A DNA stretch of 64,000 nt from Streptomyces sp. NBC_01353 (GTDB lineage Bacteria; Actinomycetota; Actinomycetes; Streptomycetales; Streptomycetaceae). The position numbers and the translations under genes are program-made. The first letter of the stretch is position 1. Each line of letters begins with the position of its first letter. The notes under the pieces are model-generated. The model saw nothing but the letters and a program-made list of their open reading frames with translations. It did no database searches and had not been told where the DNA came from. The DNA lies in assembly GCF_036237275.1 (NCBI RefSeq), contig NZ_CP108352.1, positions 6,820,001-6,884,000 on the forward strand, in the 5' to 3' direction. This document shows, piece by piece, positions 5,097-38,322 of this stretch.

Positions 5097-5720
5097 ATGG
5101 ACCCCGTGCCCCCGCCCTCACTCCGCCGCACCCCCGTCCAGCAGCGTAGCGCCGAGCGCCTCGCCCGGATCCTCGACGCCTGCGCCGAACTCCTCGACGA
5201 GACCGGCTACGAGCAGCTGAGCACCCGCGCCGTCGCCGTCCGCGCGGGTGTCCCCATCGGCTCCGTCTACCGCTTCTTCGGCAACAAGCGCGCCATGGCC
5301 GCCGCCCTCGCCCAACGCAACCTCGACCGTTACGCCGAGCGGATCGCCGCCCGGCTCGCCGCGGCCGGACGCGTCGACGCGTACAGCGCGATCGACGGCG
5401 TCCTGGACGAGTACATCGCCATGAAGCGCACGGTCCCCGGTTTCGCGCTCGTCGACTTCGGCGTCCCGGCTCCGCCCGCCGACGACGAGGGATCGGGCGA
5501 GGACGCCAACCACCTCGTCGCCGACCGCCTCTGCGGGCTGCTCGCCGACCACCTCGGCCGCACCACCGACGACGTCCTGCGCCGAAAGGTGCTGGTCGGC
5601 GTCGAGGCCGCCGACGCGCTGCTCCAGCTCGCCTTCCGCACGGACCCGTCCGGGGACCCAGGGCTCGTCGCCGAGATCCGCGAGTTTCTCCACGCCTATC
5701 TCGCGCCCTCGCTGACATGA
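5097..5720 (+). CDS. TetR-family transcriptional regulator
   Basis: 207 residues. The N-terminal helix-turn-helix (ILDACAELLDETGYEQLSTR, then VRAGVPIGSVYRFFGNKRAM) is a standard TetR DNA-binding domain. The rest is a diverged ligand domain of the size typical for the family. It lies 41 bp after the membrane-protein gene and 76 bp before the molybdopterin oxidoreductase gene, all on the plus strand. A palindrome at 5737-5750 in the latter gap is a plausible target, although that palindrome also resembles sites near a different TetR at 34 kb. Confidence 0.9.
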   Translation: MDPVPPPSLRRTPVQQRSAERLARILDACAELLDETGYEQLSTRAVAVRAGVPIGSVYRFFGNKRAMAAALAQRNLDRYAERIAARLAAAGRVDAYSAIDGVLDEYIAMKRTVPGFALVDFGVPAPPADDEGSGEDANHLVADRLCGLLADHLGRTTDDVLRRKVLVGVEAADALLQLAFRTDPSGDPGLVAEIREFLHAYLAPSLT

Positions 5721-5736: not shown

Positions 5737-5750
5737 TACCGGTCGGTATG
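5737..5750. promoter_or_regulatory. Palindrome upstream of molybdopterin oxidoreductase (candidate TetR operator)
   Basis: TACCGGTCGGTATG contains arms TACCG and CGGTA around GT. On the minus strand it reads CATACCGACCGGTA, matching the CATACCGAC(C/T)GGT core found at 31555 and 36990. It sits ~47 bp before the ATG at 5797. Confidence 0.5.
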
Positions 5751-5796
5751 CTCGCTGGTGCCCGCGCGTCACAGCCGCCGCCCCAGGGAGCCCGCC

Positions 5797-7992
5797 ATGT
5801 CCACCGCCCTGCGTATCTGTCCGCTCTGCGAAGCCACCTGCGGGCTGACCCTCACCCTCGACGGCTCCCGTGTCACCGGCGCTCGCGGGGACCGCGACGA
5901 TGTCTTCAGCCAGGGCTTCATCTGCCCCAAGGGCGCCTCCTTCGGCGAGGTCGACGCCGACCCCGACCGGCTCACCGGGCCCCTCGTCCGCAAGGACGGC
6001 ATCCTCCAGGAGGCCACCTGGACCGAGGCGTTCGACACCATCGCCGCCCGCGTCCGGCCCCTGATCGAGGAGCACGGCCCGAACACGGTGGGCGTCGTCC
6101 TCGGCAACCCGAACGTCCACACCATGGCCGGCGCGCTCTACCCGCCCCTGCTGCTCGGCGCCCTGCGCACGCGGAACCTCTTCACCGCCTCCACGCTCGA
6201 CCAGATGCCCAAGCACGTCTCCAGCGGACTGCTCTTCGGCGACCCCTTCGCCATCCCCGTACCGGACCTGGACCGCACCGACCATCTGCTGATGCTCGGC
6301 GCCAACCCCCTGGACTCCAACGGAAGTCTCTGCACCGCGCCCGACTTCCCCGGCAAGCTCAAGGCGCTGCGCAGGCGCGGCGGCACCCTCACCGTCGTCG
6401 ACCCGCGCCGTACGCGCACGGCCCGGCTCGCCGATCGCCATGTCGCCATCCGCCCCGGCGCCGACGCCTTCTTCCTCGCCGCGCTCGTCCACACCCTCTT
6501 CGCCGAGGACCTCACGGACCTCGGTGCGCTCACCGAGCACGTCGAGGGAGTGGAGGAGGTACGGGAAGCGGTACGGGACTTCACGCCCGAGGCCGTCACC
6601 ACCGCCTGCGACCTGGATGCCGGCACCATCCGCACCATCGCCCGTGAACTGGCCGCCGCACCCACGGCCGCCGTCTACGGCCGCATGGGCAGCTCCACCG
6701 TCGCGTACGGCACGCTCGCCAACTGGCTCGTCGACGTCCTCAACGTCCTCACCGGCAACCTCGACCGCCCCGGCGGTGCGCTCTTCCCGCTCGCCGCCAC
6801 CGCTCCCGCGCCCCGCCCGGCGGGACCAGGCAAGGGGTTCGCCCTGGGCCGCTGGAGGAGCCGTGTCTCCGGTCACCCGGAGACCAAGGGTGAGATCCCG
6901 ATGGCCGCCCTCGCCGAGGAGATCGAGACGGAGGGGGAGGGGCGTATCCGCGTCGTGATCGCCGTCGCCGCCAACCCCGTCCTGTCCGCACCCGACGGGA
7001 CACGTCTCGACGCGGCCCTGGACACCTTGGACTTCATGGTCGCCGTCGACCCGTACCTCAACGAGACCACGCGCCACGCCGATGTCGTGCTGCCCCCGCC
7101 GCCGCCCTCGCAGAGCGCGCACTTCGACTTCGCCTTCAACAACTTCGCCGTCCGCAACCAGGCCCGCTTCACACCCGCCGTCGTCCCTCTGGAAGAGGGA
7201 CGCATGAACGAGTGCGAGATCCACGCCCGGCTGATCCTCGCCGTCTCCGGGATGCACGGCGCGCCGCCCTCGGCCGTTGACGACCTCGCCGTCGACACCA
7301 CCCTCGCCAAGGCCGTCGCACAGGAGCACTCGCCCGTCCACGGCGCCGACCCCAAGGCCGTCGCGGCCCAGCTGAGCGGCGCGACCGGGCCCGAGCGACG
7401 CCTCGACATGATGCTGCGCCTCGGCCCGTACGACCTGGACCTCGAACGCCTCCGCCGGGCGCCCCACGGCATCGACCTCGGCCCGCTGAAGCCCCGCCTC
7501 CCCGGACTCCTCAAGACCCGCAGCGGACGCGTCGAGCTGCTGCCCGCGCCGATCGCCGCCGATCTGCCCCGGCTGCGCGCCGCCCTCGACACCGAACCGG
7601 GCGGCCTCGTCCTCGTCGGCCGGCGGCATCTGCGCTCCAACAACAGCTGGCTGCACAACGCGCCGTCCCTCAACAGCGGCTCGAACCGGTGCACCCTCCA
7701 GATCCACCCGGACGACGCCGACCGGCTCGGCCTCGCCGACGGCAAGCCCGCCCGGATCGCGGCCGAGGGCGGCCAGCTGGAGGTCGAGGTGGAGATCACC
7801 GACACCGTACGGAACGGGGTGGTGAGCCTGCCGCACGGATGGGGCCACGACCGTCCGGGCACCCGCCTCGCGGTTGCCGCCGCGCGCCCCGGGGTCAATG
7901 TGAACCAGCTCCTCGACGGCACCCGGCTGGACCCGCTGTCCGGCACCGCCGTGCTCAACGGCTTCCCCGTGGAGCTGTCACCCCTGCCGTGA
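5797..7992 (+). CDS. Molybdopterin-dependent oxidoreductase (DMSO reductase / formate dehydrogenase-like superfamily)
   Basis: 731 residues from the ATG at 5797. The N-terminus carries the [4Fe-4S] motif C-x2-C-x3-C-x27-C (Cys8, Cys11, Cys15, Cys43). It is followed by a long Mo-bisMGD domain (GANPLDSNGS, VDPRRTRTA, LTGNLDRPGGALFPL) and a C-terminal molydopterin-dinucleotide-binding domain (LHNAPSLNSGSNRCTLQIHP; LPHGWGHD). No twin-arginine leader is visible, so it is probably cytoplasmic. No electron-transfer or membrane subunits are adjacent, so its substrate and electron partner are unknown. These stand-alone enzymes are usually annotated simply as molybdopterin oxidoreductases. Preceded by a TetR gene and a palindrome. 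Confidence 0.88.
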   Translation: MSTALRICPLCEATCGLTLTLDGSRVTGARGDRDDVFSQGFICPKGASFGEVDADPDRLTGPLVRKDGILQEATWTEAFDTIAARVRPLIEEHGPNTVGVVLGNPNVHTMAGALYPPLLLGALRTRNLFTASTLDQMPKHVSSGLLFGDPFAIPVPDLDRTDHLLMLGANPLDSNGSLCTAPDFPGKLKALRRRGGTLTVVDPRRTRTARLADRHVAIRPGADAFFLAALVHTLFAEDLTDLGALTEHVEGVEEVREAVRDFTPEAVTTACDLDAGTIRTIARELAAAPTAAVYGRMGSSTVAYGTLANWLVDVLNVLTGNLDRPGGALFPLAATAPAPRPAGPGKGFALGRWRSRVSGHPETKGEIPMAALAEEIETEGEGRIRVVIAVAANPVLSAPDGTRLDAALDTLDFMVAVDPYLNETTRHADVVLPPPPPSQSAHFDFAFNNFAVRNQARFTPAVVPLEEGRMNECEIHARLILAVSGMHGAPPSAVDDLAVDTTLAKAVAQEHSPVHGADPKAVAAQLSGATGPERRLDMMLRLGPYDLDLERLRRAPHGIDLGPLKPRLPGLLKTRSGRVELLPAPIAADLPRLRAALDTEPGGLVLVGRRHLRSNNSWLHNAPSLNSGSNRCTLQIHPDDADRLGLADGKPARIAAEGGQLEVEVEITDTVRNGVVSLPHGWGHDRPGTRLAVAAARPGVNVNQLLDGTRLDPLSGTAVLNGFPVELSPLP

Positions 7993-30167: not shown

Positions 30168-31454
30168 TCATCGGTAGAGCAGATACTCCTTCCGCACGGC
30201 GCGGAACGCGGCCAGGTCCGTGGCCCACGCGCCCACCACCTCGTCCGTGTCCGCCCCCTCGTCGATCAGGGTCCGGACGCGTGTCGAGCCCGTCAGCTTG
30301 TCGATCCAGTTGTCCGGCCGCCAGGCGAAGCCGCTCCAGGAACGCTTCGCGCTGATCAGCAGCCCGATCCCGGTCCGTACGGGGTCGAAGGCCTCCCGGT
30401 CGTGCACCTGCACCTGGACCCCACCGACCGTCTTCCCCTGGAACTTGGAGAAGGTAGGGGCGAAGTACGCCTCGCGGAAGCGCACTCCGGGCAGTCCCAG
30501 GGCATTCGCCGCCTCCGCCCACCGCCGGTCGACGCCCTCCGCGCCGAGCAGCTCGAAGGGGCGGGTGGTGCCGCGCCCCTCGGAGAGGTTGGTGCCCTCG
30601 AAGAGACAGGTGCCGGAGTAGACGAGCGCGGTGTCGGGCGTGGGCATGTTGGGGCTCGGCGGCACCCACGGCAGCCCGGTGGTGTCGAAGAAGTCGCGCC
30701 GCTTCCAGCCCGACATCTGTACGGTCTCCAGCTCCACCGGCTTCGCCAGGAACTCCCCGTTGAACAGCCGGGCCAGCTCCGACACCGTCATCCCGTGCGC
30801 CTGCGCGATCGGTTCGCGCCCCACGAAGGTGGCGAAGGCGCGGTCGAGGACGGGGCCGAGGGCCGCCCGCCCGGTGACCGGATTCGGCCGGTCCAGGACG
30901 ACGAACCGTTTCCCCGCCAGCGCGGCCGCCACCATGCAGTCGTAGAGCGTCCAGATGTACGTGTAGAAGCGCGCACCCGCGTCCTGGATGTCGAAGACGA
31001 CGGTGTCCACGCCCGATGCGGTGAAGACGTCCGCCAGCGGCTGCCCGCTCTTGAGGTACGTGTCGTAGACGGGAAGCCCGGTCGCGGGGTCGTCGTAGCG
31101 GCCCTCCGAGCCGCCCGCCTGTGCCGTGCCCCGGAAGCCGTGCTCGGGGCCGAAGACGGCCACCAGGTCGACCCGGTCGTCCGCGTGCATGACGTCGACG
31201 ATGTGGCGCACGTCCGCGGTGATCCCGGTCGGGTTGGTGACGACACCGACCTTCTGCCCGGCCAGCGGGGCGTATCCGTCGGCGACCAGCCGGTCGAAAC
31301 CGGTGCGGACCCGGTGGCCGCCGCCGTGAGCGACGGCCACGGGGGCGGTCGCGGCCCCCAGCCCGACCGCGCCGCCGACGGCGAGCAGGCCGCGTCTCGA
31401 CAGGCCCGACGGGTTCGACCGGCTCGACGGGTTCGACGGGCTCGACAGGCTCAT
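30168..31454 (-). CDS. Exo-beta-N-acetylmuramidase NamZ-like (DUF1343), Tat-exported
   Basis: 428 residues from ATG 31454, which has a near-perfect ribosome site (AAGGAGGT). A twin-arginine leader (SRRGLLAVGGAVGLGAATAP) follows a Ser/Asn/Pro repeat. The catalytic-domain signatures VGVVTNPTGIT, VAVFGPEHGFRG, VFDIQDAGARFYTYIWTL and VLDRPNPVTG match DUF1343/NamZ. NamZ removes terminal MurNAc from muropeptide chains during cell-wall recycling. N-terminal codons derive from a small GTTCGACGGGCTCGAC-type repeat. Intergenic 31455-31606 holds a TetR-like operator for the divergent operon. Confidence 0.88.
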   Translation of the reverse strand: MSLSSPSNPSSRSNPSGLSRRGLLAVGGAVGLGAATAPVAVAHGGGHRVRTGFDRLVADGYAPLAGQKVGVVTNPTGITADVRHIVDVMHADDRVDLVAVFGPEHGFRGTAQAGGSEGRYDDPATGLPVYDTYLKSGQPLADVFTASGVDTVVFDIQDAGARFYTYIWTLYDCMVAAALAGKRFVVLDRPNPVTGRAALGPVLDRAFATFVGREPIAQAHGMTVSELARLFNGEFLAKPVELETVQMSGWKRRDFFDTTGLPWVPPSPNMPTPDTALVYSGTCLFEGTNLSEGRGTTRPFELLGAEGVDRRWAEAANALGLPGVRFREAYFAPTFSKFQGKTVGGVQVQVHDREAFDPVRTGIGLLISAKRSWSGFAWRPDNWIDKLTGSTRVRTLIDEGADTDEVVGAWATDLAAFRAVRKEYLLYR

Positions 31455-31554
31455 ACGGAAACCTCCTTGATCGCCTTCCCTGACATGGGCCCGCACGCTA
31501 GCGCTCCTGACGGCCCCAGGGAACGAGGCGTGCGCCAGAGGTCTTCCCCTGCTA

Positions 31555-31572
31555 CATACCGACTGGTTAGTC
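31555..31572. promoter_or_regulatory. Operator before the SDR/acyl-CoA synthetase/tetR operon
   Basis: CATACCGACTGGTTAGTC, 35 bp before the SDR start, with symmetric core ACC-GACT-GGT. The first 13 bases (CATACCGACTGGT) are identical to the reverse complement of the site at 36990-37007 upstream of the kinase/dehydrogenase operon. Confidence 0.7.
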
Positions 31573-31606
31573 TGCCGTCACTGTCACAACGGAGAGGCGG
31601 GTCTCG

Positions 31607-32371
31607 ATGAGTACGGTGCAGGGCGCTGGAGTGGTCGTCACGGGCGCGGGCGGCGGGATCGGAGCCGCACTGGCCCGCCGGTTCGCCGCCGAGGGGGCTC
31701 GGGTCGTCGTCAACGACCTCGACCCCGACCGCACCAAGGCCGTCGCCGAGGAGATCGGCGCCACCGCCGTCCCGGGCGACGCCTCGGCGATCGTCGAGGA
31801 GGCCCGCGAGGCCCTCGGCGGCACCGTCGACGTGTGGTGCGCCAACGCCGGACTCGCCTCGCCCGGTGACGCCTTCGCCGACGAGGCCGTCTGGGCCGCC
31901 GCCTGGGACGTCAACGTCATGGCTCATGTCCGCGCCGCCCGTGCGCTGCTGCCCGACTGGCTGGAGCGCGGCAGCGGCCGCTTCGTCTCCACGGTCTCCG
32001 CCGCCGGCCTGCTCACCATGGTCGGCGCCGCCCCGTACAGCGTCTCCAAGCACGGCGCGTACGCCTTCGCCGAATGGCTCTCCCTCACGTACCGTCACCG
32101 CGGGGTCAGGGTCCACGCGATCTGCCCGCAGGGTGTGCGTACGGACATGCTCACCGCCGCCGGATCGGCCGGCGAGCTGGTCCTCGCCCCCACCGCCATC
32201 GAGCCCGAGGACGTCGCCGACTCCCTCTTCGACGCCATCGAGACAGACCGCTTCCTGGTCCTCCCGCACCCCGAGGTCGCCGAGTTCTACCAGGCCAGGG
32301 CGACCGACCCCGAGCGATGGCTCGGCAACATGAACCACATCCAGCGGAAGTGGGAAGGAGCCGGCGCATGA
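31607..32371 (+). CDS. Short-chain dehydrogenase/reductase (candidate LvaD-like role)
   Basis: 254 residues. NAD(P)-binding TGAGGGIGAAL, the NAG-like ANAGLAS segment, catalytic Ser (STVSAAG) and YSVSK tetrad motifs are intact. First gene of an operon, overlapping the acyl-CoA synthetase start by 4 bp (ATGA). Together with the synthetase, the APH-type kinase and the ACAD gene sharing its operator, it could interconvert a 4-keto- and 4-hydroxyacyl-CoA as LvaD does in Pseudomonas putida. That assignment is inference from context; the family alone says only oxidoreductase. Confidence 0.88.
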   Translation: MSTVQGAGVVVTGAGGGIGAALARRFAAEGARVVVNDLDPDRTKAVAEEIGATAVPGDASAIVEEAREALGGTVDVWCANAGLASPGDAFADEAVWAAAWDVNVMAHVRAARALLPDWLERGSGRFVSTVSAAGLLTMVGAAPYSVSKHGAYAFAEWLSLTYRHRGVRVHAICPQGVRTDMLTAAGSAGELVLAPTAIEPEDVADSLFDAIETDRFLVLPHPEVAEFYQARATDPERWLGNMNHIQRKWEGAGA

Positions 32372-34026
32372 CCTCGACCGAGTCGCTCTACGCGGCCAAG
32401 CCCTGGCTCGATCTGCTCACCGAGGCCCAGCGGGCGCCCATCACCCCGCCGCCCACCGTGCTCCACGCCTTCCGGGCCTCCGCCGCCCGGGCACCCGAGA
32501 GCCCGGCCCTCGCCTACTTCGACGGCCGCCTGACCTACCGCGAGACCGACACGCTCTCCGACTCGGTCGCCGGACACCTCGCCGCACACGGCCTGGAGCG
32601 CGGCGACCGGGTCGCGATCATGCTCCAGAACAGCCCGCACTTCGTCCTCGCCCTGCTCGGCGCCTGGAAGGCGGGCGCGACCGTCGTCCCGCTCAACCCG
32701 ATGTACAAGTCGGCCGAGGTCGGGCACGCCCTGCGGGACTCCGGCGCCACCGCCCTGATCTGCTCCGACCGGGCCTGGGAGGCGTATCTGCGGGACACCG
32801 CAGCCGACTCTTCCGTACGGATCGCGCTCACCGCCTGCGAGCGCGAGTTGCAGACCCGCGACGACCCCCGTGTGCTCGCCTTCGAGCCCGTGCCCACCGA
32901 GGTCGACGACCTGCTGACCGTCGCCCGCGCCGGCCACCCCGCCCCCGCCGACCGCGAGCTCGCCGCTGACGACGTGGCCCTGATCAGCTACACCTCCGGC
33001 ACCAGCGGCACCCCCAAGGGCGCGCTCAACCTCCACCGGGGCATCAGCTACAACGCCGAGCGCCAGCGCACCGGGCACCCGATCCCGGAGGGAGCCGGCT
33101 ACTTCGCGCTCGCCCCGCTCTTCCACATCACCGGCCTGGTCTGCGAGCTCGCCGCCTGTTTCGGCAACGCCGGCACCCTCCTCCTCGCCTACCGCTTCGA
33201 CGCCGGAGTCGTCCTCGACGCCTTCCTGGAGCACCGCCCCGCGTACACGGTCGGCCCCTCCACGGCCTTCATGGCACTCGGCGCCCACCCGGGGGCGACC
33301 CGCGACCACTTCTCCTCGTTCCTGATCATCTCCTCGGGCGGCGCCCCGGTGCCGCCCGCGCTGGTGGAGAAGTTCCGCGCCGGCTTCGGGCCGTACATCC
33401 GCAACGGCTACGGCCTCACCGAATGCACCGCCCCCTGCGCCGCCGTACCGCCCGAGCTGGAGGCCCCGGTGGACCCGGCCTCCGGCACGCTCTCGGTCGG
33501 CGTCCCCGGACCCGACACGGTCGTCCGCATCCTCGACGAGACCGGCGCCGAGGTGCCCTTCGGCGAACCGGGCGAGATAGCGGTACGCGGCCCGCAGGTC
33601 GTACCGGGCTACTGGCGGCTCCCGGAAGCCACCGAGCAGACCTTTCCCGACGGGGAGCTGCGCACCGGCGACATCGGCTTCATGGACGCGGACGGCTGGC
33701 TCTACGTCGTCGACCGCAAGAAGGACATGATCAACGCCTCGGGCTTCAAGGTCTGGCCGAGGGAGGTCGAGGACGTCCTCCACACCCACCCGGCCGTCCG
33801 TGAGGCCGCCGTCGTCGGCGTCCCCGACGCCTACCGGGGCGAGACGGTGAAGGCGTACGTGAGCCTGCGCCCGGGCGCCGCCGCCGAGCCCGCCGAGCTC
33901 TCCGCGTACTGCGAGCAGCGGCTGGCCGCGTACAAGTATCCGCGCGAGGTCGAGATCCTGGCGGAGCTGCCGAAAACGACAAGTGGGAAGATCCTGAGGC
34001 GGGAACTCCGTTCCCCCACTACATGA
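32368..34026 (+). CDS. Acyl-CoA synthetase (AMP-binding, candidate LvaE-like role)
   Basis: 552 residues. Adenylate-forming landmarks: the P-loop SYTSGTSGTPKGAL, the YGLTECTAP motif, LRTGDIGFMDADGWLYVVDR and the C-terminal PKTTSGKILRREL with its catalytic Lys. It activates a carboxylic acid to its CoA ester with ATP. Translationally coupled at both ends (ATGA with SDR upstream, ATGA with tetR downstream). The acid is unknown; the co-regulated kinase and dehydrogenase suggest a medium- or short-chain 4-oxo/4-hydroxy acid. Confidence 0.9.
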   Translation: MTSTESLYAAKPWLDLLTEAQRAPITPPPTVLHAFRASAARAPESPALAYFDGRLTYRETDTLSDSVAGHLAAHGLERGDRVAIMLQNSPHFVLALLGAWKAGATVVPLNPMYKSAEVGHALRDSGATALICSDRAWEAYLRDTAADSSVRIALTACERELQTRDDPRVLAFEPVPTEVDDLLTVARAGHPAPADRELAADDVALISYTSGTSGTPKGALNLHRGISYNAERQRTGHPIPEGAGYFALAPLFHITGLVCELAACFGNAGTLLLAYRFDAGVVLDAFLEHRPAYTVGPSTAFMALGAHPGATRDHFSSFLIISSGGAPVPPALVEKFRAGFGPYIRNGYGLTECTAPCAAVPPELEAPVDPASGTLSVGVPGPDTVVRILDETGAEVPFGEPGEIAVRGPQVVPGYWRLPEATEQTFPDGELRTGDIGFMDADGWLYVVDRKKDMINASGFKVWPREVEDVLHTHPAVREAAVVGVPDAYRGETVKAYVSLRPGAAAEPAELSAYCEQRLAAYKYPREVEILAELPKTTSGKILRRELRSPTT

Positions 34027-34646
34027 CGATCACAAGGGAAAGGCGGCGGCGCATGGCCAGGACGACGGACGGGAGCGGTACCCCCGTCCCCCAGAGGCTG
34101 CTGGCCGCCGCCACCCGGCTCTTCGCGGAGCGTGGTTACGACCGCACCTCCGTCCAGGAGATCGTGGAGGCGGCGGGCGTCACCAAGGGCGCGCTCTACC
34201 ACTACTTCGGCTCCAAGGAGGACCTCCTCCAGGAGGTCTACTCCCGGGTGTTGCGGCTCCAGCAGGAGCGGCTCGACGCCTTCGCGAACGCGGACGCCCC
34301 GGTCGAGCAGCGGCTGCGGGACGCCGCCGCCGACGTCGTGGTGACCACGATCGAGAACCTCGACGACGCCTCGATCTTCTTCCGTTCGATGCACCACCTC
34401 AGCCCGGAGAAGAACAAGCAGGTGCGCGCCGAGCGGCGGCATTACCACGAGCGGTTCCGGGCCCTGATCGAGGAGGGCCAGCAGGCCGGGGTGTTCTCCG
34501 TGGCGACCCCCGCCGACCTGGTCGTGGACTACCACTTCGGTTCGGTCCACCACCTGTCCACCTGGTACCGCCCGGACGGCCCGCTCACCCCGCAGCAGGT
34601 CGCCGACCAGCTCGCCGACCTGCTGCTGCGGGCGCTGCGACCGTAG
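34023..34646 (+). CDS. TetR-family regulator (KstR2-like)
   Basis: 207 residues from ATG 34023, which overlaps the synthetase stop; ATG 34053 preceded by AAGGGAAAGG is an alternative. The HTH is AATRLFAERGYDRTSVQEIV then AAGVTKGALYHYFGSKEDL. The C-terminal MHHLSPEKNKQVRAERRHYH and HFGSVHHLSTWYRPDGPLTP segments resemble the KstR2 subgroup, whose members sense CoA esters. As the third gene of the operon it most likely represses it through the palindrome at 31555 and, in trans, 36990. Confidence 0.9.
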   Translation: MTITRERRRRMARTTDGSGTPVPQRLLAAATRLFAERGYDRTSVQEIVEAAGVTKGALYHYFGSKEDLLQEVYSRVLRLQQERLDAFANADAPVEQRLRDAAADVVVTTIENLDDASIFFRSMHHLSPEKNKQVRAERRHYHERFRALIEEGQQAGVFSVATPADLVVDYHFGSVHHLSTWYRPDGPLTPQQVADQLADLLLRALRP

Positions 34647-34660
34647 CGCTCCGGCACGGC

Positions 34661-34696
34661 GAGGGCGCCCGGGGCGATTCCGCCCCGGGCGCCCTC
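34661..34696. terminator. Strong bidirectional terminator between convergent operons
   Basis: 15-bp perfect GC-rich stem (34661-34675 with 34682-34696) and a 6-base loop GATTCC, exactly between the tetR stop and the convergent ACAD stop. Confidence 0.85.
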
Positions 34697-34702
34697 TTCG
34701 GC

Positions 34703-35917
34703 TCACAGGTACTTCTTCAGCTCCCGCCGGGCCAGCGACCGCTGGTGCACCTCGTCCGGGCCGTCCGCCAGCTTCAGCGTCCGCGCCGCGGCCCAGAGTT
34801 GGGCCAGCGGGAAGTCCTGCGACACCCCGCCCGCACCGTGCACCTGCACGGCCTTGTCGATGATGTCGACGACCGCGCGCGGGGTCGCGATCTTGATGGC
34901 CTGGATCTCGGCGTGCGCACCGCGGTTGCCGACGGTGTCCATCAGCCAGGCGGTCTTGAGGACGAGCAGGCGCAGCTGCTCGACCGTCACCCGGGCGTCG
35001 GCGATCCAGTTCTGCACGACGCCCTGCTGCGCGATCGCCTTGCCGAAGGCGGTACGGGACACCGCCCGCCGGCACATCAGCTCGATCGCCCGCTCTGCCA
35101 TGCCGATCAGTCGCATGCAGTGGTGGATCCGGCCGGGGCCGAGCCGGGCCTGGGCGATGGCGAAGCCGCCGCCCTCCTCGCCGATCAGGTTCGAGACCGG
35201 GACGCGGGCGTCGTGGAACAGCACCTCGGCGTGGCCGCCGTGGGAGTGGTCCTCGTAGCCGTACACCTGCATCGCCCGCCGCACCTCGACACCGGGGGTG
35301 TCGCGCGGGACGAGGATCATCGACTGCTGGCGGCGCACATCGGCGCCCTCCGGGTCGGTCTTGCCCATCACGATGAAGATCTTGCAGTCGGGGTTCATCG
35401 CCCCGGAGATGTACCACTTGCGGCCGTTGAGGACGTATTGGTCGCCCTCCCGCGTGATCCGGGTCTCGATGTTCGTCGCGTCGGAGGAGGCGACCTCGGG
35501 CTCGGTCATCGCGAACGCCGAGCGGATCTCGCCGGCCAGCAGCGGCTCCAGCCACTGCTTCTTCTGCGCCTCGTCGCCGAACTGGGCGAGCACCTCCATG
35601 TTCCCGGTGTCGGGGGCCGCGCAGTTGAGGGCCGTGGGGGCCAGCTCGGGGCTGCGGCCGGTGATCTCCGCCAGCGGCGCGTACTGGAGGTTGGTCAGTC
35701 CCGCCCCGTGCTCGGCGTCGGGCAGGAAGAGGTTCCACAGACCCTGGCGGCGGGCCTCGGCCTTCAGCTCCTCGACGATCTGCGGGGTGTCCCACGGCGA
35801 GGCGAGCAGCGCCCGCTGCTCGTGGGCGGTCTGCTCGGCGGGGTAGACGTGCTCGTCCATGAAGGCGAGCAGCTTCGCCCGCAGCTCCTCGGTCCGTGCG
35901 TCGAATGCGAAGTCCAT
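34703..35917 (-). CDS. Acyl-CoA dehydrogenase, ACAD10/11-like (candidate LvaC role)
   Basis: 404 residues. It starts MDFAFDARTEELRAKLLAFM and carries AFAMTEPEVASSDATN, NGRKWYISGAMNPDC, LGPGRIHHCMRLIGMAERA, AFGKAIAQQGVVQ and VHGAGGVSQDFPLA, the pattern of the ACAD10/ACAD11 subgroup rather than standard beta-oxidation enzymes. It lies 6 bp after the APH-type kinase gene, in the same order as in bacterial 4-hydroxyacid modules. In the Lva/ACAD10-11 route this enzyme processes 4-phosphoryl-acyl-CoA. Chemistry here is inferred, family assignment strong. Confidence 0.9.
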   Translation of the reverse strand: MDFAFDARTEELRAKLLAFMDEHVYPAEQTAHEQRALLASPWDTPQIVEELKAEARRQGLWNLFLPDAEHGAGLTNLQYAPLAEITGRSPELAPTALNCAAPDTGNMEVLAQFGDEAQKKQWLEPLLAGEIRSAFAMTEPEVASSDATNIETRITREGDQYVLNGRKWYISGAMNPDCKIFIVMGKTDPEGADVRRQQSMILVPRDTPGVEVRRAMQVYGYEDHSHGGHAEVLFHDARVPVSNLIGEEGGGFAIAQARLGPGRIHHCMRLIGMAERAIELMCRRAVSRTAFGKAIAQQGVVQNWIADARVTVEQLRLLVLKTAWLMDTVGNRGAHAEIQAIKIATPRAVVDIIDKAVQVHGAGGVSQDFPLAQLWAAARTLKLADGPDEVHQRSLARRELKKYL

Positions 35918-35923
35918 GGCGGA

Positions 35924-36946
35924 TCAGCCTTCCTGAAGGGTGGTGAGGCCGTGCTCGATGAAGACGGGGACGAGTTCGCCGATGCGGTCGAAGCCGGCGC
36001 CGACGGTCTGGCCGAGGGTGTACCGGTAGTGGATGCCCTCCAGGATCACGGCGAGCTTGAACCAGGCGAAGGCCGTGTACCAGGAGATGGCCGAGGTGTC
36101 GCGGCCCGAGCGGGCGGCGTAGCGCTCGATCAGCTCGGCGGGCGTGGGGTGGCCGGCGGCCGTGGCGGTCGTGCTGACGGGGGAGTGCGGGACGTCGAGC
36201 GGCGCGCTGTACATCGCGAGCAGGCCGAGGTCGGTCAGCGGGTCGCCGAGCGTGGACATCTCCCAGTCGAGGACCGCCTTGATGCGGTCGTCCTCGCCGA
36301 TCAGGACGTTGTCCAGGCGGTAGTCGCCGTGGACGACGGTCGGGGCGGGGGAGGCCGGGAGCGCGCGGCCGAGGGCGGCGTGCAGCTCGTCGATGCCCGC
36401 CAGCTCGCGGTTGCGCGAGGCGTCGAGCTGCTTGCCCCAGCGGCGCAGCTGCCGGTCGAGGAAGCCGTCGGGCCGCCCGAAGTCGCCCAGGCCCACCTCC
36501 GCCGGGTCGACGGCGTGCAGGTCGACGAGGGTGTCGACCAGGCCGAGGACGGCCTCGCGGGTGCGCTCGGGGCCGAGCGGGGCGAGCTGTTCGGCCGAGC
36601 GGTACGGGGTGCCCGCGACGAACTCCATGACGTAGAACGGCGCCCCGAGCACGCTGTCGTCCTCGCAGAGCAGCACGGGCTCGGGGACAGGCACTGCCGT
36701 GCCGTGCAGGGCGCTGATCACGCGGTGCTCGCGCTTCATGTCGTGCGCGGTGGCCAGGACGTGGCCGAGCGGGGGCCTGCGGACGACCCACTGGCCGGTG
36801 CCGTCGGTGACGACGTAGGTGAGGTTGGACCGGCCGCCCTCGATCAGCCGGGCGGTCAGCGGGCCGCCGACGAGTCCGGGCCGCTCGCGGTCGAGGAATC
36901 CGCGCAACTGCTCGGGATCGAGACCTGGCGGCTGGACTGCGCTCAT
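35924..36946 (-). CDS. APH-fold phosphotransferase, ACAD10/11 kinase-domain like (candidate LvaA role)
   Basis: 340 residues of the aminoglycoside-phosphotransferase fold: LIEGGRSNLTYVVTDG (P-loop region), WVVRRPPLG (ATP lysine region replaced by the RR of the subgroup), catalytic HGDYRLDNVLI and metal-binding LDWEMSTLGDPLTDLG. This subgroup is fused to ACAD domains in mammalian ACAD10/11 and is a separate protein (LvaA) in bacteria. It phosphorylates 4-hydroxyacyl-CoA there. Not an antibiotic-resistance kinase by context. The small LvaB partner known in Pseudomonas is not found nearby. Promoter has a perfect palindrome at 36992-37005. Confidence 0.9.
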   Translation of the reverse strand: MSAVQPPGLDPEQLRGFLDRERPGLVGGPLTARLIEGGRSNLTYVVTDGTGQWVVRRPPLGHVLATAHDMKREHRVISALHGTAVPVPEPVLLCEDDSVLGAPFYVMEFVAGTPYRSAEQLAPLGPERTREAVLGLVDTLVDLHAVDPAEVGLGDFGRPDGFLDRQLRRWGKQLDASRNRELAGIDELHAALGRALPASPAPTVVHGDYRLDNVLIGEDDRIKAVLDWEMSTLGDPLTDLGLLAMYSAPLDVPHSPVSTTATAAGHPTPAELIERYAARSGRDTSAISWYTAFAWFKLAVILEGIHYRYTLGQTVGAGFDRIGELVPVFIEHGLTTLQEG

Positions 36947-36989
36947 CGTGTGTACCTCCGGGGACGCGGGGCGGGTCGGCGTTCATGAT

Positions 36990-37007
36990 GACCGACCAGT
37001 CGGTATG
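36990..37007. promoter_or_regulatory. Perfect palindromic operator before kinase/ACAD operon
   Basis: ACCGAC-CA-GTCGGT (36992-37005) lies 46 bp upstream of the kinase start. The complementary strand reads CATACCGACTGGTCGGTC, sharing 13 contiguous bases with the site at 31555. Confidence 0.75.
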
Positions 37008-37080: not shown

Positions 37081-38322
37081 ATGAATCCAGAGCTGTTCGT
37101 CGAGGAAGTCCGGCTGACCCCGATCCTGATCTCCGACCCACCTCTGCTCAACACCCAGGGCGTGCATCAGCCCTACACGCCCCGGCTCGTGGTCGAGGTC
37201 GTCACGCGCGGCGGTGTCGTCGGCCTCGGCGAGACCTACGGCGATACGAAGTACCTGGACCTCGCCCGACCGCTGGCCGAGGCGCTGCCCGGCCGCTCGG
37301 TCACGGACGTGAACGGCTTGTTCTCGCTCGCCGCGCAGGTGTGCGGCGACTCACGGGCCGTCGACGAGCGGGTCGACGCGGGCGGGCTGCGCGGAGTGCA
37401 GACCGCCGACAAGCTCCGGCTCTCCGTCGTCTCGGCCTTCGAGGTCGCCTGTCTGGACGCCCTCGGCAAGAGCCTCGGCCTGCCCGTCCACGCCCTGCTC
37501 GGCGGCAAGGTCCGTGACTCCGTCGAGTACAGCGCGTACCTCTTCTACAAGTTCGAAGGAACGGACGACTGGGGAGCGGCCCTCGACCCGGCGGGGATCG
37601 TCGAACAGGCCCGCCGCTTCGACCGGACGTATGGCTTCCGCTCCTTCAAGCTCAAGGGCGGCGTCTTCCCGCCCGAACAGGAGATCGCCGCGATCCGCGC
37701 CCTGGCCGAGGAGTTCCCCGGCCGGCCGCTCCGCCTCGACCCGAACGGCGCCTGGTCGGTGGAGACCGCGCTGGAGGTGGCGCGGGAGCTGAAGGACGTC
37801 CTGGAGTATCTGGAGGACCCGGCGACCGGCACGGACGCCATGGCCGAGGTCGCCGCCCGCACGGACGTGCCGCTGGCCACGAACATGTGCGTCACGACTT
37901 TCGAGGAGGTCCCGGAGGCCTTCGCCCGGGACGCGGTACGGATCGTGCTCTGCGACCACCACTACTGGGGCGGCCTGCACCGCACCCGCGAACTGGCCGC
38001 GCTCTGCCGCACGTACGGCGTCGGGCTCTCCATGCACTCCAACACCCACCTCGGCATCAGCCTCGCCGCGATGACCCAGGTCGCCGCGACCCTGCCCCAC
38101 CTGGACCACGCCTGCGACACCCACTACCCCTGGCAGACCGAGGACGTCGTCACCACCCGCGCCACCTTCCACGACGGCCGCCTGACGGTCTCCGACGCCC
38201 CGGGCCTCGGCGTGGAACTGGACCGCGATGCCCTCGCCGCCCTCCACCATCGCTGGCGCGAGGACGACGGCACCATGCGCAACCGGGACGACGCGGCGGC
38301 GATGCGGCGGCTCCGCTCCTAG
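37081..38322 (+). CDS. Glucarate dehydratase-like enolase-superfamily enzyme
   Basis: 413 residues, usual glucarate dehydratase length is ~430-450. Catalytic KxK (FKLKGG), metal ligands in LDPNGAW, EDPATG and ATNMCVTTF, and the HSNTHLGISLA segment (His-Asp dyad region) follow the family order. These enzymes dehydrate D-glucarate or idarate to 5-keto-4-deoxyglucarate, with Mg2+. No other glucarate genes are adjacent, so substrate is provisional. Divergent from the kinase/ACAD operon. Confidence 0.87.
   Translation: MNPELFVEEVRLTPILISDPPLLNTQGVHQPYTPRLVVEVVTRGGVVGLGETYGDTKYLDLARPLAEALPGRSVTDVNGLFSLAAQVCGDSRAVDERVDAGGLRGVQTADKLRLSVVSAFEVACLDALGKSLGLPVHALLGGKVRDSVEYSAYLFYKFEGTDDWGAALDPAGIVEQARRFDRTYGFRSFKLKGGVFPPEQEIAAIRALAEEFPGRPLRLDPNGAWSVETALEVARELKDVLEYLEDPATGTDAMAEVAARTDVPLATNMCVTTFEEVPEAFARDAVRIVLCDHHYWGGLHRTRELAALCRTYGVGLSMHSNTHLGISLAAMTQVAATLPHLDHACDTHYPWQTEDVVTTRATFHDGRLTVSDAPGLGVELDRDALAALHHRWREDDGTMRNRDDAAAMRRLRS

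Follow-up and report, generated by a model that had tools for sequence, protein, structure and literature searches.

Mammalian ACAD10 and ACAD11, in which a kinase and an acyl-CoA dehydrogenase (ACAD) are held in one chain, were assigned their chemistry only in 2024-2025. They are marked by R626, H634, R637, the HCMR motif and the catalytic D753, R631 being general (PMC12440821; papers given by PMC number are cited here from extracts of their text). Relatives of both enzymes from a Burkholderia species are reported to have substituted for the ACAD10 domains in vitro (PMC11342911). Kinase, ACAD, short-chain dehydrogenase/reductase (SDR) and CoA ligase are also the enzyme classes of the Pseudomonas putida lva operon (lvaABCDE), and in Thermus thermophilus the TetR-family regulator PfmR (TTHB023) binds its site in the nanomolar range, its operon encoding ACADs, SDRs, a MaoC protein, a ligase and a phosphotransferase (PMC7022988). 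The present work concerns a stretch of 64,000 nucleotides from Streptomyces sp. NBC_01353 (contig NZ_CP108352.1, positions 6,820,001 to 6,884,000), hereafter the window, which belongs to an 8.57-Mb genome whose nearest named relatives are Streptomyces. Two convergent operons of the window, SDR-acyl-CoA synthetase (ACS)-TetR on the forward strand and kinase-ACAD on the reverse strand, likely form, as judged from their sequences, a regulon under a PfmR-type repressor through which 4-hydroxy (probably also 4-oxo) acids would be degraded. An earlier sequence-only reading had proposed here a levulinate or 4-hydroxyacid regulon under a KstR2-like regulator; the open reading frame (ORF) calls returned all five of its genes where it had placed them, and Pfam agreed on the class of each.

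The dehydrogenase and the kinase

Sequence comparison supports the placement of the window ACAD within the ACAD10/11 clade, with all the diagnostic active-site residues present. Among solved structures, ACAD11 (8v3u) was its best match with 468 bits, followed by 4hr3 (451 bits), which we take to be a Mycobacterium protein, versus 148 bits for the best ordinary ACAD. At the signature positions it reads R, R, H, C, M, R and D, identical to ACAD11 in mouse numbering. In this comparison, 8v3u and 8v3v were taken as the mouse protein of PMC12440821 because they are changed at its two catalytic Asp places, and the printed chain index of the structure runs one below the numbering of that paper. The full signature was found in none of the 16 other ACAD rows from this genome (14 distinct sequences, two pairs being identical), where it was partial: the general R631 was shared by these rows, Arg at 637 occurred in L015-L017 and the Asp in L024. 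In a tree of 36 rows, the 20 ACAD11-like ones stood together on one side of a branch with a support of 100/100, in line with the class given by the sequence-only reading; three of them (4hr3, Massilia and R. gordoniae) have HAMR instead of HCMR. This genome carries a single ACAD11-like gene, and a second ACAD copy exists in some other Streptomyces.

The kinase is likewise supported by its sequence as being of the ACAD11-kinase type, as had been proposed. It scored 230 bits with 9o56, 184 with 3dxp and 167-171 with the ACAD11 kinase domain, the next best structure reaching 44. It retains the catalytic D and N (D220, N225) and the two CoA-side arginines, namely the Arg beside the alphaC Glu (R86 in the paper, 84 by our count) and R176. 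A kinase tree, in which the outgroup was not resolved, served as illustration only. Compared with mammalian ACAD10/ACAD11 (PMC12440821, PMC11342911), the dehydrogenase is 55% identical with the whole signature, and the kinase 33% identical with both catalytic residues; the Streptomyces proteins differ in being two separate chains under TetR control, and their substrate is only proposed. Given the ACAD signature, the grouping with ACAD11 and the catalytic residues retained in the kinase, 4-phosphoryl-acyl-CoA chemistry would be the best reading of the pair.

Kinase and ACAD are indeed neighbours on the same strand in all of the 80 loci sampled (the best-scoring 80 of 582 relatives, all Streptomyces). 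The idea that the APH-fold gene confers aminoglycoside resistance and has nothing to do with the ACAD draws on its membership of the APH Pfam family and on the 38 bits that it scored with an APH(3') model, a weak match given the cut-off of 205. We hold it to be extremely improbable and rejected it, since the score lies far under the resistance cut-offs, the ACAD11 kinase domain is among the best solved relatives and the pairing with ACAD is invariant. This is the one intact kinase of the ACAD11 type in the genome. At L010 (G000:C1:264663-267944), part of a similar kinase (95 residues with 45% identity) stands near a TetR-like ORF and an SDR-like fragment; this looks like a decayed remnant of a second such locus.

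The probable repressor, its predicted operators and their conservation

Against solved structures, the window TetR scored 93 bits with 3dcf, 90 with 3vpr (PfmR), 71 with 2iai, 65 with 5k7f and 64 with KstR2. KstR2 of Mycobacterium, which controls acyl-CoA (steroid) catabolism through an operator of a different type, is thus the fifth-ranked relative, and the likeness to it is that of TetR family membership. The KstR2-like label of the sequence-only reading was abandoned on these scores, together with the resemblance of the operator to the PfmR site. An ScbR-like identity was also rejected: it was the top match among NCBIfam models, none of which exceeded its cut-off (75 bits versus 150 for ScbR). 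Over 192 amino acids, the window TetR and PfmR share 35% identity (95 bits), including (T/S)K-ALYH-FGSKE, which covers the recognition helix, and both have the TetR_N and TetR_C_24 Pfam pair. The TetR is probably autoregulated because it is the last gene of the SDR operon, whose promoter has an operator.

The 13-base core CATACCGACTGGT, reported earlier as common to both promoters, was indeed found exactly at 31555-31567 (+) and 36995-37007 (-), one copy per promoter, and three times in the whole genome. Allowing up to two mismatches, the window held three matches versus 0.85 expected, and at least three were seen in 2 of 100 shuffles. Such counts are suggestive, and the reality of the operator was settled by its conservation across loci. 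Upstream of the kinase, the core occurred with at most one mismatch in 80/80 loci, exactly in 39 and with a single change in 41. In front of the SDR, it did so in 65 of 67 loci, 40 of them exact and 25 with a single change; the 67 are the 69 loci with an SDR match minus two whose upstream sequence was too short. After shuffling, these regions lay mostly four to five mismatches away from the core. Ahead of ACS, examined in 57 loci, and of TetR, examined in 71, nothing better than two and three mismatches, respectively, was seen, as in the shuffles of these regions. The two facing operons thus keep the common operator first ascribed to them. Matches to SDR, TetR and ACS were present in 69, 71 and 58 of the 80 loci, some absences corresponding to contig ends or to the ends of the fetched stretch. 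Among 101 sampled Streptomyces genomes, the ACAD ortholog (E <= 1e-100) was present in 97 and the exact pattern YRACCRGTCGGTATG in 98, including all these 97; the three genomes devoid of the pattern (G034, G049, G091) belong to the four devoid of the ACAD. A simple sigma-70 consensus was searched for and was absent at both promoters, which carries little weight in a high-GC genome. Gene identities, the active sites of dehydrogenase and kinase, the operators and their conservation are in this way established at the level of sequence.

The search pattern was widened twice after inspection, from TATG to TANG (esterase sites) and then from C to Y (the reductase site of this genome). The widened form was used for the esterase, reductase, luciferase and Nonomuraea counts; main-locus counts are unwidened. 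The third exact genome site (G000:C1:7816136) is separated by 35 bases from the Beta-lactamase-fold gene that it precedes (G000:C1:7814901-7816100), a predicted esterase that matched the solved structures 7y3z, 5gmx and 5gkv with 297-333 bits; we take these to be family VIII carboxylesterases, and the substrate of the Streptomyces gene is only proposed. An esterase match was found in 65 genomes (E <= 1e-80), with an ortholog at 71% identity or more in 41. The operator preceded 39 of these 41 orthologs, namely the best 30/30 (12-103 bases before the match) and 9 of the 11 others; the unwidened TATG form was exact in 15 of the best 30. By contrast, among 20 paralogs drawn from 54 rows under 56% identity, none had an exact site and one had a site with one mismatch (a partial row, G018, at 60%, was excluded from the 41).

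A weaker candidate, as judged from its sequence, is a medium-chain reductase gene (L143, G000:C1:1857363-1858370) with a one-mismatch site upstream. Among solved structures, it matched best 4b7c (475 bits), an oxidoreductase whose function is not named; double-bond, 2-alkenal and prostaglandin reductases came next. With the widened pattern and at most one mismatch, the site was found in 15 of the 17 orthologs with at least 64% identity (exact in this genome, one mismatch in the 14 others), versus 0 of 13 paralogs. The 10 scanned neighbours of the esterase and reductase genes of this genome, taken from codon-composition gene calls, gave no TetR family match; they included one PadR-type regulator and, near the esterase, one ACAD-like gene.

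Outside Streptomyces, the TetR was matched (E <= 1e-40) in 15 of 296 sampled Actinomycetota genomes, 12 of them Streptomyces. Its closest non-Streptomyces relative met here belongs to Nonomuraea gerenzanensis (66% over 185 amino acids), with an exact widened-pattern site 38 bases before the match; 2.2 kb beyond, an ACAD ortholog (75%) starts 14 bases after a site with one mismatch. The three non-Streptomyces relatives among the 15 (L318, L319, L320; 45-59%) had one-mismatch sites within the fetched stretches. Of 133 plasmid records with an ACAD match, 11 were read. A kinase, by annotation or similarity, and an SDR were nearby in nine (Tsukamurella, Azoarcus, Bosea, Deinococcus, R. opacus, an unannotated record of B. 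cenocepacia, Ideonella, Massilia and Sphingopyxis), and the two others had no such kinase (R. gordoniae, and Tistrella, where an HPr-kinase-like gene stood instead). The ACAD11-like genes of Tsukamurella, Deinococcus and R. opacus, and those of second loci in Streptomyces, had a relative of the window SDR nearby (41-54% identity); the remaining plasmid loci had an SDR of only 28-32% identity, or no match.

Comparison with Thermus PfmR and alternative explanations

TTH_RS10115, the TetR gene heading an operon of pTT27, is letter-identical to 3vpr over the printed stretch. It was taken as PfmR because of these letters and because the gene order fits TTHB023-TTHB014 of PMC7022988. Like the proposed Streptomyces regulon, this one has a TetR homolog, a similar operator, a ligase, SDRs, a kinase, a Beta-lactamase-family fragment within the operon, and an ACAD with RRHCMRD: the one adjoining the phosphotransferase (TTHB015 by order) has the complete signature and 40% identity to the window ACAD, and the other ACAD of the operon is without it. 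The first 15 letters of the published PfmR site were matched exactly at two places upstream of PfmR. Thermus differs by its one long operon, versus two convergent operons and distant genes in Streptomyces, by a much diverged kinase, and by its additional MaoC, thioesterase and second ACAD genes, with DUF6285 and histidine phosphatase genes after them. The latter two lie downstream of the kinase (L321:695-1045 and L321:45-698, respectively), and histidine phosphatase genes adjoin the kinase also in Azoarcus, Deinococcus and Ideonella. A connection of PfmR with ACAD10/11 chemistry is suggested by the present sequence comparison and is stated in none of the extracts used here.

From a mechanistic point of view, the substrate, the order of reactions, the binding of the TetR to its sites and the releasing ligand are what we infer in the following scheme. 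The esterase would free the acid from an ester or lactone, and the alkenal/enone reductase, as a likely further member, would act in the pathway. The AMP-binding ligase would couple the acid to CoA, the SDR would interchange the 4-oxo and 4-hydroxy forms, the kinase would phosphorylate the 4-hydroxyl of the acyl-CoA, and the ACAD11-like dehydrogenase would take off the phosphate to give a 2-enoyl-CoA, which would enter beta-oxidation. The TetR would bind CATACCGACYRGTCGGTATG-like sites at the SDR-ACS-TetR and kinase-ACAD promoters and at the distant esterase promoter, and a pathway acyl-CoA would probably release it. The 4-hydroxy acid class is proposed because the homologous enzymes have a published function, levulinate being one among many candidates.

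A true levulinate pathway, in which these genes would be functional equivalents of lvaEDAC, would account for the four enzyme classes, which equal LvaE, LvaD, LvaA and LvaC (compared by class, not by sequence), and the chemistry of the final two steps fits. It nevertheless appears very unlikely. The regulator is a TetR instead of the sigma54-type LvaR, and neither LvaR nor the uptake genes LvaF/LvaG have a counterpart at the locus, the only part of the genome examined for them, which is flanked by NamZ-type and glucarate-dehydratase-like genes. No sequence pointer to a C5 keto acid was seen at the operon, the esterase preceded by the operator would be unneeded for levulinate, and the mammalian relatives use 4-hydroxy acids besides 4-hydroxyvalerate (PMC11342911). 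The levulinate label of the sequence-only reading was thus not retained. Its remark that LvaB is missing stands, insofar as no LvaB-like gene was identified; DUF6285 was searched for and is absent from this genome, the equation of LvaB with DUF6285 being only a guess. Its corollary of a variant pathway is weakened, since the P. citronellolis lva region is also without lvaB (PMC6692424) and the extracts on recombinant ACAD10/11, which are active in vitro, mention no LvaB partner (PMC12440821, PMC11342911).

A general fatty acid or phenylacetyl-type regulon, where the ACAD would carry out ordinary alpha,beta-dehydrogenation and the kinase would act elsewhere, could be expected from the naming of PfmR for phenylacetate and fatty acid metabolism (PMC7022988); moreover, the string CCGACCGGTCGG occurs in a paper on B. 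cenocepacia PaaR, which treats its inverted repeat. Such a regulon is made quite unlikely by the ACAD, which combines R626 and the HCMR helix with an Asp at position 753, and by the kinase-ACAD pairing throughout the 80 loci. Another possibility is that the esterase and alkenal-reductase sites serve a different TetR of near-identical specificity, the regulon being limited to the two window operons. The overlap of PfmR and SbtR specificities in Thermus is in line with it, as are two further sites, namely a related one at window position 5738, next to the gene of a different TetR, and an exact one that precedes a molybdopterin oxidoreductase gene in another Streptomyces (L223). We consider it unlikely, as the scanned neighbours of the two genes gave no TetR match and the esterase site is conserved about as well as the main sites.

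Several observations weigh against the 4-hydroxyacid regulon under a PfmR-type repressor that we favour. The PfmR regulon was ascribed to the degradation of fatty acids and, with reference to Agari et al., to phenylacetate (PMC7022988), and operators 1 and 2 differ from the older published PfmR site TACCGACCGNTNGGTN (PMC7022988) by two mismatches and one mismatch, respectively. The Thermus kinase keeps D and N, is without the two arginines and has 24-27% identity to that of the window. Related TetRs may share sites, the specificities of SbtR and PfmR overlapping in Thermus (PMC7022988), and in the window a near-site, ACCGGTCGGTATG (5738-5752), lies between a different TetR-like ORF (5097-5720) and a molybdopterin oxidoreductase-like ORF (5758-7992); as suggested by its sequence, it may belong to another TetR with a confusable operator. 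In N. gerenzanensis, the 18.5-kb stretch is without a kinase, SDR or ACS relative, and the TetR relatives of L318, L319 and L320 are not beside kinase or ACAD genes in the stretches read. ACS seems dispensable in some relatives: of the 69 loci where TetR and SDR were both matched, 12 gave no ACS match. Finally, the grouping of the dehydrogenase was tested against ACAD11 and bacterial relatives, a set without P. putida LvaA, LvaC, LvaD and LvaE.

A published description of this regulon was not found, the literature being judged on titles and abstract openings. Found in 97 of the 101 sampled Streptomyces, and combining this active site with a repressor of its own and a conserved operator, the locus would offer a bacterial model of ACAD10/11 chemistry that is easy to handle genetically. 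The esterase and the alkenal reductase, as predicted additional members, give a hint of its natural substrate. The signature ACAD beside a kinase in the PfmR operon offers a new reading of that regulon. With somewhat less than even confidence, we propose that PfmR-type repressors with a TACCGAC-GTCGGTA operator mark an old 4-hydroxyacyl-CoA regulon (phosphorylation and phosphate removal) common to Deinococcota and Actinomycetota. Thermus PfmR would then be mislabelled as a phenylacetate/fatty acid regulator, and Streptomyces would add the esterase and the enone reductase so that esters, lactones or unsaturated 4-oxo compounds could be starting points, gamma-lactone signals possibly among them.

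Locus layout, neighbouring genes and further sites

Coordinates are collected in Table 1. SDR and ACS, as well as ACS and TetR, overlap by four bases. The glucarate-dehydratase-like gene had a match beside only 15 of the 80 loci; it was rejected as a regulon component and is probably not a core member because it is found in a minority of loci. The NamZ-type gene had a match at 65 of them, and shared control was not apparent.

Table 1. Genes and predicted operators of the locus (window coordinates), with supporting evidence and proposed role or location.
Feature	Position	Strand	Evidence	Proposed role or location
SDR oxidoreductase	31607..32371	+	PF00106	proposed 4-oxo/4-hydroxy interconversion
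Acyl-CoA synthetase (ACS, AMP-binding)	32368..34026	+	PF00501 and PF13193	proposed CoA activation; missing at some related loci
TetR-family repressor, PfmR-like	34023..34646	+	TetR_N + TetR_C_24, PfmR similarity	last gene of the SDR operon
ACAD10/11-like acyl-CoA dehydrogenase	34703..35917	-	ACAD11 match, RRHCMRD, tree	proposed phosphate removal from 4-phosphoryl-acyl-CoA
APH-fold kinase	35924..36946	-	PF01636, solved relatives, catalytic residues	proposed 4-hydroxyacyl-CoA kinase
Operator 1 TAACCAGTCGGTATG (predicted)	31555..31569	-		~40 bp before SDR start
Operator 2 CGACCAGTCGGTATG (predicted)	36993..37007	+		~45 bp before kinase start; between kinase and divergent gene at 37081
Glucarate-dehydratase-like enolase-superfamily gene	37081..38322	+		divergent from kinase, operator 2 common to both
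NamZ-type exo-beta-N-acetylmuramidase gene	30168-31496	-		upstream of SDR

The genome held nine one-mismatch matches to the 13-mer, two of which were inspected (the reductase site and window 5738). The one-mismatch sites L141, L142, L144 and L145 of this genome were set aside, being inside called ORFs or not directly upstream of one. In other Streptomyces, extra exact sites (20 stretches among the matches listed) lay before varied genes, some unrelated in class; the one before a molybdopterin oxidoreductase (L223) has the main pattern. A luciferase-like monooxygenase gene was matched in 84 of 101 genomes, and 20 of the 30 relatives examined had a site with at most one mismatch, mostly 33-34 bases upstream (loci carrying or examined for the operator: L212, L214, L216, L220, L221, L256-L285). 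It is not claimed as a member in this genome, where its own copy has no site better than three mismatches.

Second ACAD11-like loci of other Streptomyces (L206, L207, L208, L210, L211) had 60-71% identity and variously a kinase, an SDR, a ligase or a thiolase. The one in G095 (L211) has its own TetR (55%) and no site within one mismatch; an exact operator was present at L206, L207 and L208.

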